This document shows positions 6,684 through 51,054 of a stretch of 64,000 bases of DNA, piece after piece; position 1 is the stretch's first letter; each line of letters opens with the position of its first letter. Made by a program: the position numbers and the translations under genes. The stretch lies in NCBI GenBank assembly GCA_020186115.1, contig WSYJ01000141.1, positions 62,001-126,000 of the forward strand, written 5' to 3'. The DNA is from Histomonas meleagridis (Eukaryota > Parabasalia > Tritrichomonadida > Dientamoebidae). The notes under the pieces were generated by a model, which was not told the origin of the DNA, made no database searches, and saw only the letters and a list, made by a program, of their open reading frames with translations.

Positions 6684-8630
6684 ATGACAACATTCCATCA
6701 CAAAAAAGTTTGTTCGAATCACTTGTTATTCGTTCCTCATAAGTTCATGACCGCAACAAATATTCAAACATTTCTCCTACTTTTGTTGATTCAGACCTGT
6801 ACATCTTGGTTTCGAGTTGATTCGGTTTGTTTATGCAAAATGATCACGCACCAAAATTATTATCATGTTTTTATGCAGAATACTCAATTCACCCAAAAGA
6901 AATTATTAAACATTGAACAACACTTACACTCACTTGTATGTTGCCCTAATAGATTTAATTTTGGCAATATAAATGATGCAAAATACAACATATTCAAATT
7001 TGTTTCGGGTATTTTTGTATCCAAAGATGTTGGCATAATGTCTTTATTATTATTTTCAATCTTTATTTTGCTCTTGATCAAATTACTATGTCATTTTATA
7101 AATATCATAATTCAAAGCGTTCATAATAAATTTAAGATTAATAATCATTTTGTTCCAATTTTGTTTGTTTTCTTCATTGCACATTCTTTTGAACTATTTG
7201 ATACAACGAATAATACACTTACAATTACTAATTCTGAAGAATTTAACAATATGTATACCTATAAAAATGATGCAGAGCATCTTATAATTAAAGATGGTGT
7301 TGACATTATATCTGAAGATGCATTTGAAAATTGGCTTTCATTAGTCACAGTTGAAATTGGGAATTGTGTAACAGAAATTGGTGAAAATTCATTTTATAAT
7401 TGTAATAAAATCAAACATATTTATATTGGAGAAAATGTTGCTAAAATCGATTCTTTTGCATTTCAATATTGTACTTCACTTGAAAATATTACAATTCCAA
7501 AATCAGTTACTACAATTAATGCGAATCCTTTTACGGGATGTTCAGCACTTCAATTTATTAAAGTTTCAGAAGAAAATGAATATTTTTCGAATTATGCAGA
7601 AGATGGCGTTCTTTATGACAAAAACATCACTAAACTTATCAGTTATCCCATTGGTAAAGCAGATAATTCATATAATATTCCATCCACAATTACAGCGATT
7701 GAAAATTTTGCATTTTATTCATGTTCAAATATTCAGTGTCTTTATTTTTATGGTAACAAATCGCCATCTGTCGCTGGTATGGGATTCGATGAGTTTAACC
7801 TTGCGTCAGGTAAAGTTATGGTGCTAACAACATATGAAAATAAAACATTTGGTTCTTTTAAAGTTAGCAAAGGAACACCTGCTGAAGGGTGTGCTCCAAT
7901 GAGAACATATACATTTTCTCAAACAAATGCATTTACGCAATCTGATTCATTTTCACCATCACATTCATTTTCACCATCACATTCATTTTCACCATCTAAT
8001 TCATTTACTCAATTTAATACATTTTCACCATCTAATTCATTTAATCAATCTAATACATTTTCAAAGTCAAATGCATTCACCAAGTCTGATACATTTAATC
8101 AATCAAATACATTCACAAATTCAAATTCATTTTCTAATCATTATCAAACAGATGAAACATCAATCAGTTTTACACAGTACACCATGTCTCACAGTTACCT
8201 AGTCACATATACATTAATATACTCTGAAACGTTGGCAATATATAATTCATTCATATTAAACACAGTTTCTCTCACGTATAGTGGTTCTGCAATTATTTAC
8301 ATAAGCACGCAAATGATATATTATGAATACACTGTTATCCAATTTTCATTATACACGGAATATTATTCAAACTTTTATTTCTATTTTGAGCATAATGAAC
8401 ATCCAAATAACAAAACTCTTGGCAAAGGTGCAATGATTGCTATTATATGTTGTTCAGTTGCATTAATCTTATTGATAATCAGTTTAATTATTTTTATGGT
8501 TCGTCATCATAAACGCAACAAGGAAACGGAGGAATCAAGCGAAATTGAAGAGAATGAACAAATCGAATTTGAAACTCTTGATAATGATCTTAAAAAATAT
8601 GTAAGTAATGAAAACGATAAATGGATTTGA
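6684..8630 (+). CDS. BspA-like leucine-rich-repeat surface protein
   Basis: 648 residues. The first 160 residues are an unusual hydrophobic extension. A signal-peptide-like stretch (NHFVPILFVFFIAHSFE, about 156-172) leads into TpLRR/BspA repeats (about residues 185-370) with the unit 'F..C..L..I.IP.SVT.I...AF'. A Ser/Phe/Asn stalk of SFSPSH- and NTF-type repeats (about 410-500) follows, then a variable segment, one membrane helix (about 583-606) and a 42-residue acidic tail. Trichomonad BspA proteins of this build sit on the cell surface and are proposed to mediate contact with host cells or bacteria. The stretch 7091-7987 is nearly identical to 16198-17096 on the other strand. The cytoplasmic tail differs from the two other BspA genes here and lacks their DPFAKDF motif. 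Confidence 0.85.
   Translation: MTTFHHKKVCSNHLLFVPHKFMTATNIQTFLLLLLIQTCTSWFRVDSVCLCKMITHQNYYHVFMQNTQFTQKKLLNIEQHLHSLVCCPNRFNFGNINDAKYNIFKFVSGIFVSKDVGIMSLLLFSIFILLLIKLLCHFINIIIQSVHNKFKINNHFVPILFVFFIAHSFELFDTTNNTLTITNSEEFNNMYTYKNDAEHLIIKDGVDIISEDAFENWLSLVTVEIGNCVTEIGENSFYNCNKIKHIYIGENVAKIDSFAFQYCTSLENITIPKSVTTINANPFTGCSALQFIKVSEENEYFSNYAEDGVLYDKNITKLISYPIGKADNSYNIPSTITAIENFAFYSCSNIQCLYFYGNKSPSVAGMGFDEFNLASGKVMVLTTYENKTFGSFKVSKGTPAEGCAPMRTYTFSQTNAFTQSDSFSPSHSFSPSHSFSPSNSFTQFNTFSPSNSFNQSNTFSKSNAFTKSDTFNQSNTFTNSNSFSNHYQTDETSISFTQYTMSHSYLVTYTLIYSETLAIYNSFILNTVSLTYSGSAIIYISTQMIYYEYTVIQFSLYTEYYSNFYFYFEHNEHPNNKTLGKGAMIAIICCSVALILLIISLIIFMVRHHKRNKETEESSEIEENEQIEFETLDNDLKKYVSNENDKWI
7915..8140 (+). repeat. 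Ser/Phe/Asn stalk-coding short tandem repeats
   Basis: Imperfect 18- to 24-base units such as TCACCATCACATTCATTT encode alternating SFSPSH, SNSF and SNTF motifs in the stalk. The paralogue at 16.2 kb has fewer units. Identity between the copies ends within this tract, as expected if slippage or recombination changes the stalk length. Confidence 0.75.
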
Positions 8631-15641: not shown

Positions 15642-17386
15642 TCATATTTTAATGATAGCATTATCCTCACTAAAATCTTTCGCAAATGGATCTTCTTCTG
15701 TGATTTTACTGGAAAATTCAATCGAAAAATCGTTATTTTCATTCTCATTACAAATAACATCAACAGACTCTTCTTCTTTAATTCGTTTATTATGTTGAAT
15801 ACGTATTAATATAATGATAATTATTAATATTATTACGATTGCTGCAATAATAGGGAAAATTATGATGTAAATGTTGAATTTATTGTTGTGTTCTGATTCG
15901 CTTTGGTTTTGATATACTAAAAATGTGCCTGAATAAAAACTTAAAAGAGTATAATGCATAACATTCGTATATTCATAATAAATAAATTCTGTTTCTGTAG
16001 ATGAAATTAATTGTGTTTTGGATAAAAATGTTTTTATTGTAATTGTTTCTGTTATTGAATACGTATAAGTTAGAAGAAAAGAGTGCGTCAATGTACAAGA
16101 TTTAATTGAATTTGTATTTGTATATTGAATATACATATTTGATAATGTATTTGATTGTGAAAATGTGTTTGATCGCGAAAATGTATTTGATTGATTGAAT
16201 GAATGTGATGGTGAAAATGAATGTGATGGTGAAAATGAATCAGATTGCGTAAATGTATTTGTTTGAGAAAATGTATATGTTCTCATTGGAGCACACCCTT
16301 CAGCAGGTGTTCCTTTGCTAACTTTAAAAGAACCAAATGTTTTATTTTCATATGTTGTTAGCACCATAACTTTACCTGACGCAAGGTTAAACTCATCGAA
16401 TCCCATACCAGCGACAGATGGCGATTTGTTACCATAAAAATAAAGACACTGAATATTTGAACATGAATAAAATGCAAAATTTTCAATCGCTGTAATTGTG
16501 GATGGAATATTATATGAATTATCTGCTTTACCAATGGGATAACTGATAAGTTTAGTGATGTTTTTTGTCATAAAGAACGCCATCTTCTGCATAATTCGAA
16601 AAATATTCATTTTCTTCTGAAACTTTAATAAATTGAAGTGCTGAACATCCCGTAAAAGGATTCGCATTAATTGTAGTAACTGATTTTGGAATTGTAATAT
16701 TTTCAAGTGAAGTACAATATTGAAATGCAAAAGAATCGATTTTAGCAACATTTTCTCCAATATAAATATGTTTGATTTTTATTACAATTATAAAATGAAT
16801 TTTCACCAATTTCTGTTACACAATTCCCAATTTCAACTGTGACTAATGAAAGCCAATTTTCAAATGCATCTTCAGATATAATGTCAACACCATCTTTAAT
16901 TATAAGATGCTCTGCATCATTTTTATAGGTATACATATTGTTAAATTCTTCAGAATTAGTAATTGTAAGTGTATTATTCGTTGTATCAAATAGTTCAAAA
17001 GAATGTGCAATGAAGAAAACAAACAAAATTGGAACAAAATGATTATTAATCTTAAATTTATTATGAACGCTTTGAATTATGATATTTATAAAATGATTTA
17101 ATGATTTGAGTAAACAAAAAATAAAAAGTAATAAAATGATTTGGTTGAAAAAATATGAATTGCCTTCGCATAATGTTTCACAAAATTTGTCAAATAAATT
17201 TTTAAGAAACAAAAAGTTTATCTTGTTTAGAATGCTATTGTTAGCAAGCATTGCAAGATAACCTTTATACGTTTGATTAATTTTTAGAATAAAAAGCTGG
17301 GATAATGCTTGAAATCTGGTATTTTGTGTAATTTCCAACGAGATCAAGGGAAAGTTTTTGAACTTTTTTATTTGTGTACTTTTCAA
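15642..17386 (-). pseudogene. BspA-like surface protein gene, frameshifted paralogue of the 6.7-kb gene
   Basis: Three overlapping open frames (17386-16742, 16809-16552, 16760-15642) together encode one BspA-like protein. The stretch 16198-17096 is nearly identical to 7091-7987. Two single extra A residues break it: AATAAAAATC instead of AATAAAATC near 16780, and GACAAAAAACATC instead of GACAAAAACATC near 16560. Joined, the product would be about 580 residues: hydrophobic N-terminus, signal-like FVPILFVFFIAHSFE, BspA repeats, a shorter SF stalk, a different post-stalk region, a membrane helix and a tail ending EEDPFAKDF-containing. Both breaks are in A runs, so either true pseudogenisation or sequencing error is possible. 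Two AACGGTTT sites (about 17431-17472) lie just upstream. Confidence 0.8.
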
Positions 17387-17977: not shown

Positions 17978-20900
17978 TTAAATATTTCGAATGAAATTTT
18001 CTTCTTTGAAATCTTTCGCAAATGGATCTTCGTCAATATTTGAAAAATCAATGACATTATTCATCGATAAATCATTGTTTTTATCATTTGCATCAATTAC
18101 ATTTTCTATCGAACTTTCTTTGTTTTGATTACGTTTATATATAATAAAAAATATAATTATAATTATAATAACTATAACAAAAACACAAACGATAATGATA
18201 ATAATTTGTGTGATATTCATATCATTATTATTATTGGGTTCATCTTGTGAAATAATTGTATAAAAACCTGAATAATATGTAATATAAGAAAGATATGGAG
18301 CAGCAGTATATTCATATGAAATTAAAACAGTTTCAATATATGAATATAATGAATTAATCATAGAAATTGTAATAGTGCTATAAAATATCGATTTTTGGAT
18401 AATAGTTTTTGTGATCGTTTTTCCAAATGTTATTGTATTTATAAATGTCATTCCGAATGATAATGAAATTGTAAATGAATTTGATTCAGTAAAAGTATTT
18501 GAAAATGTATTGGAAAATGAATTTGATTTAGTAAATGTATTTGACCTTGTAAAAGTATTTGAAAATGAATTAGATTCACTAAATGAATGTGTTGGGAAAT
18601 AATATTGATTACATTCATCAACATATGATCCCTTTGAAACATTTAATGGACCAAATGTTTCATCTTGATATAAAACTGATGTCATAACATATTCTGCTTG
18701 TACATTACCAAATGCGTTCACTTGTATTGTTGGTTGTGCAAAACCTGTAAAATAAATACATGTGAGATTCGTGCAGCTTTGAAATGCAAATCTTAAAATA
18801 CTTGTCACATTTTTACCAATTATAACTGTTTTCATATTTGTGCAATATCTAAATGAATATCCTCCGATTCTAGTTACTGAATCTGGAATCGTTATATTTG
18901 TTAAAGATGCACATGATTGAAATGCATAATTACCAATTGTATCTACCAAATTTGGTATTGTCATATTTTGTAATGATGAACATTGTTGAAATGCATAATT
19001 ACCAATATATGATATATTATCACTTAATATTACTGTTTCTAAGTTATAACATTCATCAAATAAATAATTTTCAATCTCACTTATTGAAAATGGAAGGATA
19101 AATTTCTTAAATGATTCACATGAACGAAATGCAGAATCATCAATTAATGTTACTGTATTTGGAATTATTATATTGGTTAAACTATAACATGAACGAAATG
19201 CAGAATTACCAATTTCTGTTACTGTATTTGGAATTGTTATATTGTCTAATGATGTACATGTATGAAACATAAAAGCAGGAATTAATGTAATTGAATCGGG
19301 AAATGTTATATTGATCAATGATGTGCATGAATAAAACATAGCACCACCAATTGATGTTAAATTATTTGGAATCGTTATATTAATTAATGATAAACATGTA
19401 CTAAATGCATAGTAACCTGTTGATGTGACTGAATCCGGGATTATTATGTTTGTTAAGTTTGAACATGAATCAAATGCATTATCACCAATTGATGTTATTG
19501 TATTTGGAAGAATTATATCAATTAATGATGTACATGAATAAAATAAAGAATCAGATATTGATGTAATTGAATTAGGGATTGTTATATTAATTAATGATGT
19601 GCACTCGGCAAATGCAAAATTACCAATTGATGTTATTGTATTTGGAATTATAAAATTAATTAATGATGTACATGAATAGAATAAATAATCAGATATTGAT
19701 GTAATTGAATTAGGGATTGTTATATTAGTTAAAGATGTGCACTCGGCAAATGCAAAAGGTTCAATCAATGTTATTGTATCTGGAATTCTAAAATTAATTA
19801 ATGATGTACATGAATAAAATAAAGAATTTGAAATTGTTGAAACTGAATCAGGAAGTGTTATATAATTTAATAATGAACATGAATCAAATACAGAAGATCC
19901 AATTAATGTTACTGAATTTGGTATTGTTATATTGTTTAATGATGAACACTGAGCGAATGCATAGTTGCCAATTGATGTCACTGAATCTGGAATTGTTATA
20001 TTTATTAAGTTAGAGCAAAGACGAAATGAAGAAATACCAATTGATTTTACTGTATTTGGTATTGTTATATTAATTAAAGATGAACATGAATAAAATAAAG
20101 AATCAGAAATCGTTTGAAGTGAACATGAAATTGTTATGTTAACCAATGATGAACACGAATAAAATGCGAAAGATTCAATTGATTTTACTGATTCTGGAAT
20201 TACTATATTGGTTAAATTTGAGCATGAGCGAAATGCTGACGATCTAATTGTTGTAATTTTATTTGGAATTGTTACATTAGTTAATGATGAACATGATTCA
20301 AATACTGAAGATTCAATTGTACTTACTGAGTTTGGAATCGAAAAATTAATTAATGATGAACATGAATGAAACGTATACGATCCTATTGAAGTAATTGTAT
20401 TTGGAATTATGACATTAGTTAATGATGAACATTGATAAAATAAATAGCTGTTAATTATTTTAATATTATTTGGAATGGTTATTTTGACTAATGAAGAGCA
20501 TCCACGAAATGCATAAGATCCAATAAATGTAACTGATTCTGGAATTACAATATTTTCTAAAGAAGAGCAATAATAAAATGCATAATTTTGGATATTTGTT
20601 ATCGAGTCAGGAATTTCAAATGTTGTTTTAGAATTTCCTGCTGGATAACATATAATGGTAGTGATATCTTTATTATAAAGAACTTCATTGTTGTCATAAT
20701 TGGAATAAACAGTGTTTCCTTCAGATACTTTAATAAATTGAAGAAGTTTACATTGAACAAAAACATTTTGTCCAATTGAAGTAACTGATTTTGGTATTGT
20801 AATATTTTTCAATGAAGAACATGAATAAAATGCTTGAGTTCCAATAGTTGTTACATTTTCTCCAATGATAATATTTTCTAATTTCGAACATAATTGAAAT

Positions 20901-22414
20901 ATATAATTTCCAATTGATATTACTGATTCTGGAATAATAATGTTTTCTAATTTAGAACATGAATAAAATGCATAATCTTTAATTATTGTGACTGAATTCG
21001 GAATAATAACATCTATTAATGATGTACATGAATAAAATGCATAACCTTCAATTGTTGTAACAGTATTCGGAATTTCAAATGTTTTATTTGAACTTATTAC
21101 AGGATAAAATAAAATTGAAGAATGATTTTTGTTATAAAGAATTCCATTATTTCCAGCAGAATAATAAATGTTTTTCTCAGATACATTAATAAATTGAAGA
21201 AGTTTACATCCAGCAAAAACGCCTGTACCAATTGATTCAACCGATTCTGGAATATAAATAATTTTTAACGAAGAACATGATTGAAATGCATTGTTTCCAA
21301 TTGATTTGATTGAATCCGAGAAGTTAACATTTTCTAATTTAGAACATGTTCTAAATGCATAACTTCCAATCGATATAACTGAATCTGGAATTATAATGTT
21401 TTTTAATGAATTGCAATAATAAAATGCCCAATCTTCGATTTTAGTTACATTTTTACCAATTTTGATAGATACTAATGATTTACATTCTCTAAATGCATTA
21501 GATTCGATTGTTTCCACTTTATCTCCCATCAAAACTGTTTTTAAATTATCACAAGAACCAAATGCATAACTTCCGATTGAAGTGACTAAATCACCAATTT
21601 CAACTGATTGTAATAAATTCCAATCATAGAAACTTCGAGATGGAATATTTTCAACTCCATCATAAATTATAAGGTGAAATGCTTGACTTTTATATGTGTC
21701 CTTATTATTAAATTCATTAGAATCAGATATATTAAGTGTTCTATTTATAGAATCATATGTTTCAAATGTTTGAGTAAAGAAAAATATAAACAAAATAGAA
21801 AGATTAGAATGTTTTGATTTTGCTTTCTTATGAATACATTTAAAAAATAAATTTGTTGAATTATTTATCTTCTTTATGAAAAATAAAGTAAAAATAAGAA
21901 ACAAATTCAAAGAAATAATTTTCGAAAAAAATAAAGACCCCCATAAATATGAACAAGGATATTTAAATTTTGAACGGATGAATTCATAAAAATAAAATCC
22001 ATGACTAAAAATGGGGATATTAAAAAAACATGCTGAATTTTGGTAAAGCATATCCTTAGGCATTGCCTTTAAAGACAAAGCTGAGTAGTTTAGACGTGAA
22101 TCACATTTGAAAAGATCAAGCATATATTGAATTAAAACATAAATATAGAAACTAAAGAAATTATGAATAGAAAAATAACTACACATTGTTTTATGCAAAA
22201 AATTTAGTGATTTTTTGCATTTTCCAAATAATTTTGAGAAAATATATCTGAAATTATTATGAATGATATTACTGTCAAACAACATGTTTGAAGCTACTCG
22301 TGGAGTGCTGGTAAATAGATTTATGAGTAGCAGAGGATGGTGCATATTCAGAATGATCTTTCTTGTTTTGCTTTGGGAATAGATTATATCAAATAAATCA
22401 TTGATTTCATTCAA
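17978..22414 (-). CDS. large BspA-like leucine-rich-repeat surface protein
   Basis: 1478 residues, intact. Residues 1-200 are an unusual extension with several hydrophobic stretches. A signal-like segment (SNLSILFIFFFTQTFE, about 202-217) precedes over 40 TpLRR/BspA units of about 23 residues with the consensus 'SIGSYAF..CSSL.NITIPNSVT' up to about residue 1270. Two inserts (ILYNKNHSSILFYPVI... and VLYNKDITTIICYPAG...) divide the array into blocks. Then come a Ser/Asn/Phe stalk (SNSFSNTFTRSNTF), a membrane helix (about 1400-1424) and a 53-residue cytoplasmic tail containing DEDPFAKDFKEENFI. The family is surface-exposed in trichomonads and expands by repeat duplication. The stop is TAAA. Start choice is uncertain because no Inr is obvious. 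Confidence 0.88.
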   Translation of the reverse strand: MNEINDLFDIIYSQSKTRKIILNMHHPLLLINLFTSTPRVASNMLFDSNIIHNNFRYIFSKLFGKCKKSLNFLHKTMCSYFSIHNFFSFYIYVLIQYMLDLFKCDSRLNYSALSLKAMPKDMLYQNSACFFNIPIFSHGFYFYEFIRSKFKYPCSYLWGSLFFSKIISLNLFLIFTLFFIKKINNSTNLFFKCIHKKAKSKHSNLSILFIFFFTQTFETYDSINRTLNISDSNEFNNKDTYKSQAFHLIIYDGVENIPSRSFYDWNLLQSVEIGDLVTSIGSYAFGSCDNLKTVLMGDKVETIESNAFRECKSLVSIKIGKNVTKIEDWAFYYCNSLKNIIIPDSVISIGSYAFRTCSKLENVNFSDSIKSIGNNAFQSCSSLKIIYIPESVESIGTGVFAGCKLLQFINVSEKNIYYSAGNNGILYNKNHSSILFYPVISSNKTFEIPNTVTTIEGYAFYSCTSLIDVIIPNSVTIIKDYAFYSCSKLENIIIPESVISIGNYIFQLCSKLENIIIGENVTTIGTQAFYSCSSLKNITIPKSVTSIGQNVFVQCKLLQFIKVSEGNTVYSNYDNNEVLYNKDITTIICYPAGNSKTTFEIPDSITNIQNYAFYYCSSLENIVIPESVTFIGSYAFRGCSSLVKITIPNNIKIINSYLFYQCSSLTNVIIPNTITSIGSYTFHSCSSLINFSIPNSVSTIESSVFESCSSLTNVTIPNKITTIRSSAFRSCSNLTNIVIPESVKSIESFAFYSCSSLVNITISCSLQTISDSLFYSCSSLINITIPNTVKSIGISSFRLCSNLINITIPDSVTSIGNYAFAQCSSLNNITIPNSVTLIGSSVFDSCSLLNYITLPDSVSTISNSLFYSCTSLINFRIPDTITLIEPFAFAECTSLTNITIPNSITSISDYLFYSCTSLINFIIPNTITSIGNFAFAECTSLINITIPNSITSISDSLFYSCTSLIDIILPNTITSIGDNAFDSCSNLTNIIIPDSVTSTGYYAFSTCLSLINITIPNNLTSIGGAMFYSCTSLINITFPDSITLIPAFMFHTCTSLDNITIPNTVTEIGNSAFRSCYSLTNIIIPNTVTLIDDSAFRSCESFKKFILPFSISEIENYLFDECYNLETVILSDNISYIGNYAFQQCSSLQNMTIPNLVDTIGNYAFQSCASLTNITIPDSVTRIGGYSFRYCTNMKTVIIGKNVTSILRFAFQSCTNLTCIYFTGFAQPTIQVNAFGNVQAEYVMTSVLYQDETFGPLNVSKGSYVDECNQYYFPTHSFSESNSFSNTFTRSNTFTKSNSFSNTFSNTFTESNSFTISLSFGMTFINTITFGKTITKTIIQKSIFYSTITISMINSLYSYIETVLISYEYTAAPYLSYITYYSGFYTIISQDEPNNNNDMNITQIIIIIVCVFVIVIIIIIIFFIIYKRNQNKESSIENVIDANDKNNDLSMNNVIDFSNIDEDPFAKDFKEENFIRNI

Positions 22415-24517: not shown

Positions 24518-27496
24518 TTACACATTGTTATACTCTTTTTCTTCTTCGTTTTTTGTTTCCAGTGCTTTTCTCGCCACCAAATTTACCACAATTGTTATTA
24601 AATCATGGACTAGAGCGGCTGCGATCATAATATATGAACCTTTTAATAAAACTGTAACTACGTCAAAACATTTTTCGTGACCTTTAATATAATTTTCTTC
24701 GTTAAAATATTTTTGTATAATTGGGTCGATCAATTCGCATTTATCGCCGACCATAAATTGAGCGAATTGTGATATTTCAAGCACTGCTGCTATTACTCCT
24801 ATCACGAACACGTCCAAACAACTCCAAGCATACATTACTTCGCACGCCTTATATAAGCCTTTTTGGATTTTATACTTAAAAGGTACTAACCATAAGACGA
24901 TCATTGAAATAATATGAACCATTGGCATAACAATAGTTATAATAATATATAAAACTTGAGTAAATCGAACGCCAAAAGAATTCGGATATTCTGCAGCTTC
25001 TGGTAAATCGATGGCTAAGTTTAATACTGAATATTCATTATAATTAGGTATTGGTATTAATGTCATTGCCCAACCTAATAATCCCACGAAATTAAATGAA
25101 AATGACTTGAAATAAATTCCCGCAATTATAGCAAAAAAGACACCAAATAACATAATTGTTGTGAACCATCTTAAAACATTATTTTTACAAAGTTTGAATA
25201 AGTTGGTTTTCTCTTCATTTTTATGATTTAATTCATTCATTGAATTGTCAACATATCTATCAATAGCTAAAATTATATGAGAAAGTAATAATGAAAATAA
25301 TGTGCCAATCATTAATGCAATAAATCCATATGCAGGATAAACCCATAAAAATATATTTAAATCTTCTTTAACATCTGGATTAACCTTTGGTATATTAATT
25401 TTTAAATTAAATGCCACTAACATTAATATCATTACGTATGAATCTAATAATGACCATTTACCTAACGCATCAAGTAATTTCAAAAAACTTTCTCTAAGTT
25501 TTTTACTTAATATTTTCGTTGGCAAAACCCAAATTAATAACATCATAACAAGTTTGATATATGGCCAAGCACATGACATTATAGCAACAAGTATAGATAA
25601 TGCATAAGCTTTAGCTTTCCACATATCGACAATAGAATTAATTAAACCAAAATCAAACATTGATGGTAATGAAATAATTTTTTCACCAATAGAAAATTTT
25701 ATAAATACTGATGCGCCAATTCCTGTATTAGCAGAAACAAATAATGAGACATTCATTAATATTAAAAATGGCATTAATATTCTAACAAATAATGGTAAAC
25801 GTGAAGACATTAATAAGCTTTGTTCTTTAATAATTTCTTCGTTAATATTAACATTATTATTTTCATTATCATTTAATGTTATCATTAAACTTGAATCAAG
25901 TTTTCTTTTTGGTTTATTCTTTTCAATAATTAAAACAACAATTAACATAATAATAATTATTACAACACTAATACCTATAGATAATAAAGTTGTCCAAGCA
26001 ACAAATTCATTATAAGGAGGATCAATTAAATTTGGACAACTATTATCACTTAATAATAAATTATTAAGTTTATTATTAACAATTTTTAATACATATGTAT
26101 TAATATAAGAATTTAAAAATAATGGAATAATTCCTCTATAATTTTCTATAAATAATTTAATAATATTATTAATAAATTCTCTAATTTTAACTTCAATATC
26201 TTGTTTCGTAGCAACTAATCCAATTTTCTGAATTGATGTGATAAAATTCAAATATGTTGAGCCTGTTCCTTTTGAAGAAATTAAATTCTTTATACAATTT
26301 ACATTCATACATTGAGAATTAGTATAGTTAATACCTGCACCTTTAGGTGAAGCAAGTTGAAGTCTCATGTTCAATGAATTATTTAATAATATCATATCAA
26401 GATCAGCTGTTTCAGATAAATAAATATCACCGGTACTTATAAATGAACCATTAGCACTTACGTTTAACGTAAAACTAAGATTAATTCCTAATTCATTCAT
26501 TCCTGTATTGGAATCAAGTGTATAAGCATCAATAGGATCGAAGAAATTGAATTCATTCCATGTATTCATTCCGGAAAAATTAAGTTCATTAATCGAAACA
26601 TTAATTAAAGAACTTAATGGTTGTAATGGAATTGAAAATTTAAAAGGCATGTCTATACCAAATTGTTTTATAAGTTGTGACGTTGATATAAAACCGGTAT
26701 TATATGAAAACTTGTTCATTAAAGCATTTAAATTTAATGGACCATTCATTCCCATTAATTTAACTAAAACAAAACGTAATGTATTAATTATTGGCGAATT
26801 ACGTAAATCATACATATTTGTTCCTATTGGTATAGTAATTGGTTTTGTTTCTTTAAGAAATGGACGAATTATTTTGTTAGTCATGTTAAACACTTTAGTT
26901 ATTGCTTCGCTTATGGCTGTGGGTGCCATTTTACATACAATAGAACTAATGTTTTCTTTAAGAATATCAATAATTATATCTTTCAGAAGTTGTATTAACC
27001 ATTCAAGAAATTCCTCTGTGCTAATATGAATGTCTGCTTGTAAATCACCGATTTTAATATTACATGTATCAGAAATTGATGTAACATTTTCTATAAGGCC
27101 ATCAGGACCTTTATTAAATTCGAATCCTAATTGTATAGATGTATCTTTTGCTATGGCATCAAAAGTTCCGGCTTCATTGAAGTCACCGCCTTTAGTTTGA
27201 TTAAGTTTGATTTTACCTCTTGCTTCGGCTGAAATAACAAAATTGATTATTATTCCTGTTTCAACTTTTTGAGGATCAGGTGTGAATGTAGCCTTTATAT
27301 CAGTAAGATCAAGGTTGTTAATAAGAAGATCTTGAACAGTAAAATTAAATCCAAAATCAATTCCTAAAAATGATTTTGAAAAATTTGTATGAATTTCATC
27401 AATTGTGATATTTAACTTCCTAATCCAACACTTAAAATCGCATTCTTCATTTATTAAATCTAGTGAACATGTGAAAAAAAGCAAAAGATGAAACAT
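24518..27496 (-). CDS. BPI/LBP (TULIP) lipid-binding ectodomain fused to PqiA/LetA-like membrane domain
   Basis: 992 residues. Residues 1-15 form a signal peptide. Residues about 20-490 look like the two-barrel BPI/LBP fold: SDTCNIKIGDLQADIHIS and LEWLIQLLKDIIIDILKE with ISSIVCKMAPTAIS align with the 'C..HI..V.V.IS....WLIQLF...I...L......VC.K.....S' block of BPI, including the disulfide Cys pair (145, 188). A membrane helix follows (502-524). Then come two homologous multi-helix halves (about 570-745 and 776-980), each with the PqiA hallmark: LGKWSLLDSYVMILMLVA (678-695) and MYAWSCLDVFVIGVIAAV (888-905). PqiA/LetA proteins work with MCE proteins in bacterial lipid transport; BPI proteins bind lipids in a hydrophobic groove. 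A surface or endomembrane lipid-handling role is inferred. The start context is TCATCAACGATACAAAAAATG-like. The stop is TAAA. Confidence 0.75.
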   Translation of the reverse strand: MFHLLLFFTCSLDLINEECDFKCWIRKLNITIDEIHTNFSKSFLGIDFGFNFTVQDLLINNLDLTDIKATFTPDPQKVETGIIINFVISAEARGKIKLNQTKGGDFNEAGTFDAIAKDTSIQLGFEFNKGPDGLIENVTSISDTCNIKIGDLQADIHISTEEFLEWLIQLLKDIIIDILKENISSIVCKMAPTAISEAITKVFNMTNKIIRPFLKETKPITIPIGTNMYDLRNSPIINTLRFVLVKLMGMNGPLNLNALMNKFSYNTGFISTSQLIKQFGIDMPFKFSIPLQPLSSLINVSINELNFSGMNTWNEFNFFDPIDAYTLDSNTGMNELGINLSFTLNVSANGSFISTGDIYLSETADLDMILLNNSLNMRLQLASPKGAGINYTNSQCMNVNCIKNLISSKGTGSTYLNFITSIQKIGLVATKQDIEVKIREFINNIIKLFIENYRGIIPLFLNSYINTYVLKIVNNKLNNLLLSDNSCPNLIDPPYNEFVAWTTLLSIGISVVIIIIMLIVVLIIEKNKPKRKLDSSLMITLNDNENNNVNINEEIIKEQSLLMSSRLPLFVRILMPFLILMNVSLFVSANTGIGASVFIKFSIGEKIISLPSMFDFGLINSIVDMWKAKAYALSILVAIMSCAWPYIKLVMMLLIWVLPTKILSKKLRESFLKLLDALGKWSLLDSYVMILMLVAFNLKINIPKVNPDVKEDLNIFLWVYPAYGFIALMIGTLFSLLLSHIILAIDRYVDNSMNELNHKNEEKTNLFKLCKNNVLRWFTTIMLFGVFFAIIAGIYFKSFSFNFVGLLGWAMTLIPIPNYNEYSVLNLAIDLPEAAEYPNSFGVRFTQVLYIIITIVMPMVHIISMIVLWLVPFKYKIQKGLYKACEVMYAWSCLDVFVIGVIAAVLEISQFAQFMVGDKCELIDPIIQKYFNEENYIKGHEKCFDVVTVLLKGSYIMIAAALVHDLITIVVNLVARKALETKNEEEKEYNNV

Positions 27497-35863: not shown

Positions 35864-38800
35864 TTAGAAAGATTCTACGTGATGCTTATGCTCATTTGTA
35901 AATTTCTCAGCCTCTTCGCGCGACATGTTTCCCTTTTCCATTGATATTTTCACCAATATTTCATGCAGTTGGTCAGGAATACCTCGCGCAGGTCCGCAGT
36001 AGAAGAATTCGGTGTCGATGTTACTGCCAGTACTTCCACACCACGTCCGGATTTTGCAACATTAAATCGGTGATATAAGTTTTCGTTTTCCCGCTTCTCG
36101 AGTACGCGACGAACAAATCCTGCATTGTGTTTGTGTCTCTGTAATCCTCGAGCATCGAGTCGAGTATCGGATACGTATCTCTATATCTACATCCGAAGAA
36201 CAATGCTGCGTCGCCAATTGGCTTCTCAATACTGTCTCTATGTTGAAGTAATGATAACATTGGAGCTATACCACATCCAAGTGCTGCCATAAATATCGGA
36301 TGCGATTTGTTTTTTGGATATACGAAACATCCCTTTTGCGTATGAATTGGTACTTTCGTTAGACCGAATCGACGTAAGAATGAAGTACATAATCCATTTC
36401 TTTCACCTTTTACTCCGAACATATTATCAGTGATTATTAAATCAATTGAATATGAATTCGCTTCAGGTGCAGAAGCAATGGAATATAAACGTGGCTTAAT
36501 TGGTGGGATTGCTGTGACTAAGATATCTAATGGCGGATGATTCGATTTTCCATATTTTATGATGAATTCGGATATATTTATATCCTTTTGTAAGTCTTCG
36601 AAATATTTCGGCTGTGATATGTCGAGAATGTTCTCAAGTTCTTTCTTAAGTTCTTCGTTTGTTATATATTGTTTATAAGCACGGCATAGATTACGTGTCG
36701 GCCTTCCATTTAAGTCAAGATATTGTGCGAATAATTCGTGTATTGTAACTCTTTCTGGTATAGAATTAAGACCTTCAGTAAGTGTTGTTTCTACTTTATA
36801 TATATCATTTGGATTTAATTTGAGTTCATTTATAATTGTCTTAACTACTTCTGGATTGTTTTGTGGTAATATTGCAACATGATCACCTGTATCATACTTC
36901 ATACCTTTCGGTAATTTAATTTGATATCGATGCATCGCTGGTTGATATCCTTCAGGTGTTAATTTTGTTGATGATAACATTACTCCATATTCATAGCCAA
37001 TTGGATTTAATGGATATTTATATATTGGATCATTCTCATCAATGTTTTCTTCTTTGGTAAGTGTATAATTTGGTTTGATAATGATTTCAGGCATTTTAAG
37101 TCCAAGTGATTGAAGGATTTCAGGGCACCATGACTCGAATATACCTTCGCCTTTATCTGATGTGTTGGAATCTAATTCAATTATATTATGAATTCGATGC
37201 GCGCCTTTTTCTTCAAGTAATTTATCAATTAAATGTCCAGCCGCACAAAACTTTGGATATAAATTTGATCCAAGTGCACATACTGAATAACGTAACTTAC
37301 TTAAATCGTTGTTACTTTCTCTTAATTCATTTACAAATTTTTCGGCATTCGATGGTAATTCGCCATCACCAAATGTTGAACAAAATATTATAATTGTTCC
37401 TTGCTTAATCATTCTATTTAGATTGACCATTGATAAGGCACTTGTTGTAGTTCCAATATATTCTGCAAATGTTCTTGCTAATCGTGATGCTGTACCTGAC
37501 ACAGAACCATATGCAACAAGTGGCAAATTTTCGGATTTTCGTAGTTGTTCAAGGAATGGAGTTGTTTGTATTTCATAACTTGTATGAAGGAATTCATGTG
37601 ACTTTTCATTTCCTGGAGTACCGAAATATGATTTATATAATGTTTTCAGTTCTTCATTATCATTTGAAGTTATTTTCTTTGTGTTACGATCTAATTCATA
37701 AATTGTTTTCGCACGTTTTTGTGCTTCTTTATGTGAACGTGTCTTAGGTTGTCCGCCACCACCAATACAACCACATGGACAAGCCATTACTTCAATGAAT
37801 GTATAATTTAAATATTGTCCACTTTCGATAAATTCACGAGCATTTGAAATACCATTACATACTGCGATCTTCATATTAATTCCAGCAATTGTAGTACTTG
37901 CTGTTTTAATTCCTTGGAATCCTCTCCATTGAGTATATTCGACTTTACCTAATTTTTCATGATTAAGTTGTTCATGTGCAAAACGAAGTGCTGCTTCCAT
38001 AACACCTCCTGTAACACCGAATAATGCTGCAGCGCCTGTTGATTCACCAAGTAATGAATCATATTGTGCATTATTATCAAGTGTATCCCATTTAACACCA
38101 AACATTTTACATAATTCACCAAACTCTACAACAGATAAAACTGCATCAACAATACCTAATATTTGTTTGCGTTGAATTTCATCTTTCTTAGCTACACATG
38201 GCATTAATGAAACAGTGAAAATATTTTCTTTTGGAATATTCATCTTCTCGGCCCAATAAGTTTTAATTGCTGTCCCTGCCATCATATGTGGCGATTTAGA
38301 TGTAGATAAATTAGGAATAATTTCGGGATGAATCTTTTCAACAAAGTTAACCCATCCAGGACAACATGATGTAAACATTGGAAGAACTCCACCATTATTA
38401 ATTCTATCAATGAGTTCAGTTCCTTCTTCGACTATAGTCATATCAGCGCCAAAGTTTGTATCAAAAATATATTGGAATCCCATTTCTTTAGCTGCTGATA
38501 TAATTTTTCCAGTGCATAATGTACCAATAGGATCACCAAAACATTCTCCAACTGAAACTCTTGCTGACGGCGCTGTTTGTAGAATGCATACTTTACCTCC
38601 TGCCATTGCATGTATAACTTTTGGAATATCATTCTTTGGACGTAAAGCACGTGTAGGACATACAGTGATACATTGACCACATGAAATACATGGGCCTTCA
38701 CATAATTTTGCTGATAATTCATCAATTGCATTTATTGTTTGTTCATCACTACAAGCTCGAGAACAACGTGTACAATTGATACATAACTTTGGATCAAATG

Positions 38801-39176
38801 TTAACGAAGTAGTTTCTTCATGGCCACGCAAACGAATGGTTTTCGTTGGTACTAAATAATCAATGATGTCCTCTATCTCAGGAACTGCTGGCATCACACC
38901 CATATCATTGAATTTATTTAACGCTTCCATTGCCTTTTCTTTGATTTCTGGTGTGTTTGTTTCAATGGTCATTCCATCAACAACTTTTGTTGAGCATGAT
39001 AATGAATAATTTGAGCCATTGATTTTTACAACACAAACACCACATTTTCCGGCTGGTGGTAAATCAGGATGATTGCATAGAGTAGGGATATAAACACCAG
39101 CATCAGTACACGCTTGTAGAACTGTTGAATGTTCTGGAACTTGAATTTCTTTTCCATTTATTTTAACTTTAATCAT
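35864..39176 (-). CDS. [FeFe]-hydrogenase fused to NADPH-cytochrome P450 reductase/CysJ module (one frameshift)
   Basis: Residues 1-78: 2Fe-2S ferredoxin domain (CNHPDLPPAGKCGVC). About 128-175: two 4Fe-4S motifs (CINCTRCSRAC, CISCGQCITVC). H-cluster motifs: TSCCPGW (269-275), MPCVAKKDE (325-333) and MACPCGCIGGGGQ (464-476). About 552-690: flavodoxin-like FMN domain (AYGSVSGTASRLA, STFGDGELPSNAEKF). After about 720: FAD/NADPH reductase (RLYSIASAPEA, ALGCGIAP). The first frame stops at 36021 after VWKYWQ, but a +1 shift continues GSNIDTEFFYCGPARGIPDQ to a stop at 35864, restoring the family's C-terminus (about 1103 residues). The fusion is known from trichomonads and some other anaerobic protists and would couple NADPH to H2 production. 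No hydrogenosomal presequence is visible, so a cytosolic site is inferred. One extra base near 36030 is mutation or error. Confidence 0.92.

Positions 39177-48144: not shown

Positions 48145-51054
<2,910 letters not shown>

Follow-up and report, generated by a model that had tools for sequence, protein, structure and literature searches.

The locus considered here raises the question of whether a single eukaryotic polypeptide could both collect lipids outside a membrane and insert them into it. The window, i.e. the whole stretch of 64,000 nucleotides of Histomonas meleagridis DNA that was analyzed (contig WSYJ01000141.1, positions 62,001 to 126,000), carries at 24518-27496 on the minus strand an uninterrupted open reading frame of 992 amino acids, running from ATG to stop and preceded by in-frame stops, with the order TULIP-TULIP-TM-PqiA-PqiA (all features of this gene given below lie on the same strand). 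Judged from its sequence and from a predicted structure of the complete protein, its architecture is almost certainly that of a pair of BPI/CETP-type barrels and, beyond a tether helix, two PqiA halves resembling LetA. Lipid transfer is its likely function, and it is fairly probable that the protein is a one-polypeptide lipid transporter, in which the TULIP barrels would feed the LetA-like part.

Domain Architecture

The fusion of a TULIP ectodomain to a PqiA/LetA-like part had been proposed in an earlier reading made from the nucleotide sequence alone (the sequence-only reading), and it was confirmed within this one reading frame by Pfam matches to both parts. The model of the N-terminal LBP_BPI_CETP domain (PF01273) matched residues 29-191 with an E-value of 1e-6 and 29.0 bits, barely above the cut-off of 28.8, and the model of the BPI C-terminal domain gave no match in the Pfam search at E-values up to 1. 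A search of PDB sequences with the single window sequence returned no match, unlike the family profile, which among the sequences of solved structures reached BPI (1bp1, 2.2e-14, for TULIP-N) and, weakly, LetA. The TULIP-N barrel (residues 18-213, 26858-27445) is thus assigned from PF01273, the profile match to BPI, and the fold matches of the model to BPI, LBP, and CETP, as well as to arthropod TULIPs. The TULIP-C barrel (residues 214-494, 26015-26857) has a slimmer basis, namely the helix-sheet-helix pattern of the model and the family profile, with the fold alignments to LBP and BPI extending through residue 429-430. The tandem of TULIP-N and TULIP-C that characterizes the CETP/BPI family is therefore present, so that of the original TULIP claim the fold has stood, while the single module has given way to two barrels. 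Superpositions of the whole ectodomain of the model gave root-mean-square deviations of 23-27 Å, which counts against a rigid boomerang of the BPI type.

The cysteine pair pointed out in the sequence-only reading corresponds to C145 and C188 (26933-27064), which the family profile places on the human BPI cysteines in SSCSSHI and SQVCEKV; in the 61 rows of the alignment that have a residue at both sites, cysteine stands at both in 25, at neither in 36, and at just one in none. A second pair, C401 and C487 (26036-26296), is a probable disulfide, cysteine being found at both positions in 70 of the 70 rows in which both are filled. C19 and C23 form a looser pair (both in 26, neither in 31, and one in 5 of 62 rows), and C396 is cysteine in 53 of 71 rows.

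For the membrane part, the Pfam PqiA model (PF04403) matched in two stretches (6.4e-15 and 55.8 bits for the whole protein, with a cut-off of 23.8). On the basis of Pfam and the model fold, half 1 is assigned to residues 569-749 (25250-25792), with four helices and an outer β-sheet, and half 2 to residues 773-978 (24563-25180). Each half contains the W-S-x-L-D-x-F/Y motif that had been claimed for it, as WSLLDSY at residues 681-687 (25436-25456) and as WSCLDVF at residues 891-897 (24806-24826). When residues 559-992 were shuffled 20,000 times, WSxLDx[FY] never occurred twice, and among the 213 relatives in which both halves are nearly complete the motif is kept in 194 for half 1 and in 193 for half 2. 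In the last outer loop, C920 and C943 (24668-24739) are both cysteine in 71 of 72 rows, with neither in the remaining one, and C893, within a membrane helix, is cysteine in 64 of 72. In the model the two halves together resemble LetA (9n8w) and have the LetA/PqiA fold. A missing TULIP fold in the N-terminal half or a missing likeness to LetA in the C-terminal half had been named beforehand as refuting the proposal; the model instead matches BPI, LBP, and CETP in the former and LetA in the latter. The protein does lie outside the bacterial PqiA/YebS (LetA) subfamily as defined by TIGR00155, with 26.6 bits against a cut-off of 260.35.

Tether Helix and Orientation

The hydrophobic N-terminus (residues 1-15, 27452-27496) is a likely signal peptide, modeled as a helix at residues 2-9 with low confidence. 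Between the barrels and the PqiA halves, hydropathy and the model agree on a single transmembrane helix, TM0 (residues 500-527, 25916-25999), which is followed by a probably cytosolic linker (residues 528-568, 25793-25915) that is partly of low confidence, the predicted local distance difference test (pLDDT) score being below 50 at residues 531-552. The mean fraction of lysine and arginine is 0.13-0.27 in the loops assigned to the inside and 0.045-0.105 in those assigned to the outside (72-73 rows). The pairs C145-C188, C401-C487, and C920-C943, and C19-C23 as well, all fall outside, and 14 of the 15 N-glycosylation sequons are located N-terminal of TM0. Taken together, these features put the barrels and the outer sheets of both PqiA halves on one side of the membrane; in bacteria, LetA meets LetB on this face.

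Relatives and Barrel Number

The search for the same fusion in other protists, which had been called for, was successful, as the same domain order was found in 122 of the 247 proteins examined. The named relatives come from Histomonas, Trichomonas vaginalis, Tritrichomonas musculus, Entamoeba histolytica, Entamoeba invadens, Chrysophaeum taylorii, and Balamuthia mandrillaris, and that order occurs in Trichomonas, Tritrichomonas, Entamoeba, and Balamuthia among others; most of the remaining relatives carry dataset labels or none, with “Opistho-2” being presumably a Pigoraptor and “m51a1” a Mastigamoeba. The number of barrels per chain is 2, 3, 5, 6, or perhaps 7, the outer tube growing by added TULIP-C modules or by a repeated N-C-C block. 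Five, six, and perhaps seven barrels precede the PqiA pair in P0166 (Balamuthia), P0119-P0122, and P0169, and the longest array, counted from the first barrel up to PqiA, has 1,711 residues. Only PqiA halves were seen in 31 of the 247 proteins; since most of these entries came from a search admitting only short proteins, and often from short contigs, lack of the TULIP part is not claimed for them. The T. vaginalis proteins TVAG_025310 and TVAG_047860 begin inside the first PqiA half, and P0013 (Histomonas, 811 amino acids) comprises C-P1-P2 only.

Some relatives carry further domains or doubtful labels. In P0092 (1346 amino acids), a single transcriptome entry, a PTEN-type phosphatase with a C2 domain (PTEN_C2, 1.7e-26) stands before the TULIP-PqiA part, which, if real, would tie the transporter to phosphoinositides. 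P0163 (1556 amino acids) is a gene model in which an ERG4/ERG24 sterol reductase (1.4e-105) is linked with TULIP-C and PqiA; it may be a model fusion, but the arrangement hints at sterols. P0099 is labeled “archaeon” and falls within the three-barrel clade alongside eukaryotic transcriptome entries, and it is probably a mislabeled bin.

Paralogues in Histomonas

In the genome searched (G000, 43.3 Mb in 121 contigs), an intact paralogue with 74% identity to the window protein is found on contig C78, and further copies show 58% (C40, compared in part), 48% (C120), and 33% (C57) identity. A decayed copy with many stops lies at C83:297240-297795, and another Histomonas paralogue, P0002 (GPJ56_010050, on a 53 kb contig), has its best match in this genome at 67%, with no close counterpart there. 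The ratio of nonsynonymous to synonymous substitution rates (dN/dS) between the window gene and the C78 paralogue is about 0.13, with synonymous sites near saturation, and indicates purifying selection. By part, it amounts to 0.14 and 0.13 for the barrels and 0.10 and 0.08 for the PqiA halves, residues 495-568 changing fastest (0.31); identity is 85% and 82% in the PqiA halves and 74% in each barrel. Over the 9.5 kb compared, the likeness between the two loci is confined to the gene, and since it is all that they have in common, the neighbors provide no functional hint. A rhomboid gene lies tail to tail beside the window gene; the idea that it encodes a processing partner was given up, as the surroundings differ at C78.

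Proposed Mechanism and Alternatives

In the proposed mechanism, the barrels would reside in the extracellular or phagosomal space and take up lipid there, as the family to which they belong would suggest; this lipid may be phospholipid, sterol, or bacterial lipid A. The lipid would then be passed to the LetA-like cavity, from which the LetA-like part would insert it into the membrane, with the TULIP barrels filling the role of the separate MCE tunnel of bacterial LetA and PqiA. As these protists feed, net uptake would be more likely than the reverse. Whether the protein family is, beyond that, a eukaryotic counterpart of LetAB/PqiAB, in which a LetA-class transporter has a same-chain TULIP tunnel, repeatedly lengthened as MCE tunnels are and so reaching distant lipids, is a proposition that we consider evenly balanced.

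The opposite direction of transport, in which the LetA-like part would extract membrane lipids and the barrels would carry them outward to a surface coat or a facing membrane, is considered unlikely, although the anatomy leaves the direction unfixed, and the longest arrays would suit the spanning of two membranes. To our knowledge, there is no outer membrane in these cells to receive the lipid, and the named carriers are parasites or amoebae feeding on cells, plus one alga, both of which weigh weakly against export.

Quite improbable is a third possibility, in which the PqiA part would be a mere anchor or scaffold and the TULIP part alone would bind bacterial lipids at the surface in the manner of BPI or LBP, in defence or in prey killing. 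It would agree with the loss of the zinc ribbons and with the fact that the solved proteins closest to the N-barrel, BPI and LBP, bind lipopolysaccharide (PMC5507252). For an anchor, however, one helix suffices, and TM0 is already there; the PqiA halves are, moreover, the most conserved parts of the protein by identity and dN/dS alike, with their motifs kept in 194 and 193 of the 213 relatives mentioned above. That the whole is an artefact, produced by chimerism in the gene model or by a likeness arising by chance, has a negligible probability and is in our reading already refuted, since the marginal TULIP score and the empty PDB search with the single sequence are set against an uninterrupted frame, an intact paralogue elsewhere in the genome, the recurrence of the same order in other proteins, and model matches for both parts.

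Trichomonads and Entamoeba probably rely on lipids obtained from host and bacteria. For the crossing of lipids in these organisms, the window protein offers a well-defined candidate amenable to purification; what LetA itself does would become addressable in a single-chain protein, and the natural series of barrel numbers suits the question of whether length sets reach.

Other Genes in the Window

An [FeFe]-hydrogenase fused with flavodoxin and FAD-binding domains is encoded at 36021-39176 (minus strand). By eye, a CDC48/VCP-like ATPase gene was recognized at 48145-50544 (minus), in a stretch with 48% GC against 26-27% in its neighbors, and BspA-like leucine-rich-repeat membrane proteins at 6684-8630 (plus), 15642-17386 (minus), and 17978-22414 (minus), the second of these being split over two frames and resembling the first.

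Comparison with Known Systems

Protist and amoebal proteins in which a PqiA domain forms the C-terminal part behind CETP/BPI domains were described in two sentences by Wong and Levine in 2017 (PMC5507252), where the PqiA domain is said to anchor them in the plasma membrane, and both parts are suggested by the authors to handle possibly the same lipids. The passages of that paper on these proteins are without a structure, more than two barrels, the zinc-ribbon loss, or the LetA fold, and CETP/BPI proteins are described there as two-barrel tandems, with one-barrel variants as well. For MCE proteins, a paper likewise of 2017 (PMC5561183) describes domain numbers of one, three, and seven per protein. 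Among the matches listed in the literature searched, which covered few subscription journals, there was neither a report of more than two barrels nor a functional study of TULIP-PqiA proteins, in line with the earlier remark that no functional description was known. In that literature as a whole, a single paper brought TULIP and PqiA together. The two-barrel fusion is thus already in print, and the modular lengthening of the tube is, as far as could be found, new.

Sequence searches of solved structures gave no TARP/stargazin, the four-helix membrane subunits, and a likeness to them is read here as a repeat of the resemblance between LetA and TARPs that has reportedly been noted in work on LetA. 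BPI, LBP, CETP, and PLTP have the same tandem of TULIP-N and TULIP-C, with the N-barrel cysteine pair shared by 25 of the 61 rows of the window family. They are, however, secreted and soluble, whereas the window protein is membrane-tethered and has relatives with additional barrels. E. coli PqiA and LetA contain two CxxC pairs each, those of the bacterial zinc ribbons, whereas the window protein has none. Of the 241 proteins that have both halves, 240 likewise lack such pairs, and one has a pair. The MCE domain (PF02470) had no match in a six-frame search of the Histomonas assembly, which was available in part, while the control was positive in 4 of 14; such a search may fail to detect a gene that is spliced, missing from the assembly, or very divergent. 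The idea that a TULIP module takes the place of MCE in a lipid-uptake machine is in part supported by this and by the signs of topology, with lipid uptake itself being what we infer. In the E. coli LetA/LetB and PqiA/PqiB/PqiC systems the tube is built of MCE domains, whereas in the window protein it is a TULIP tube fused in one chain; if the proposed mechanism is true, a LetA-class transporter can work with an unrelated tube and without an MCE ring.
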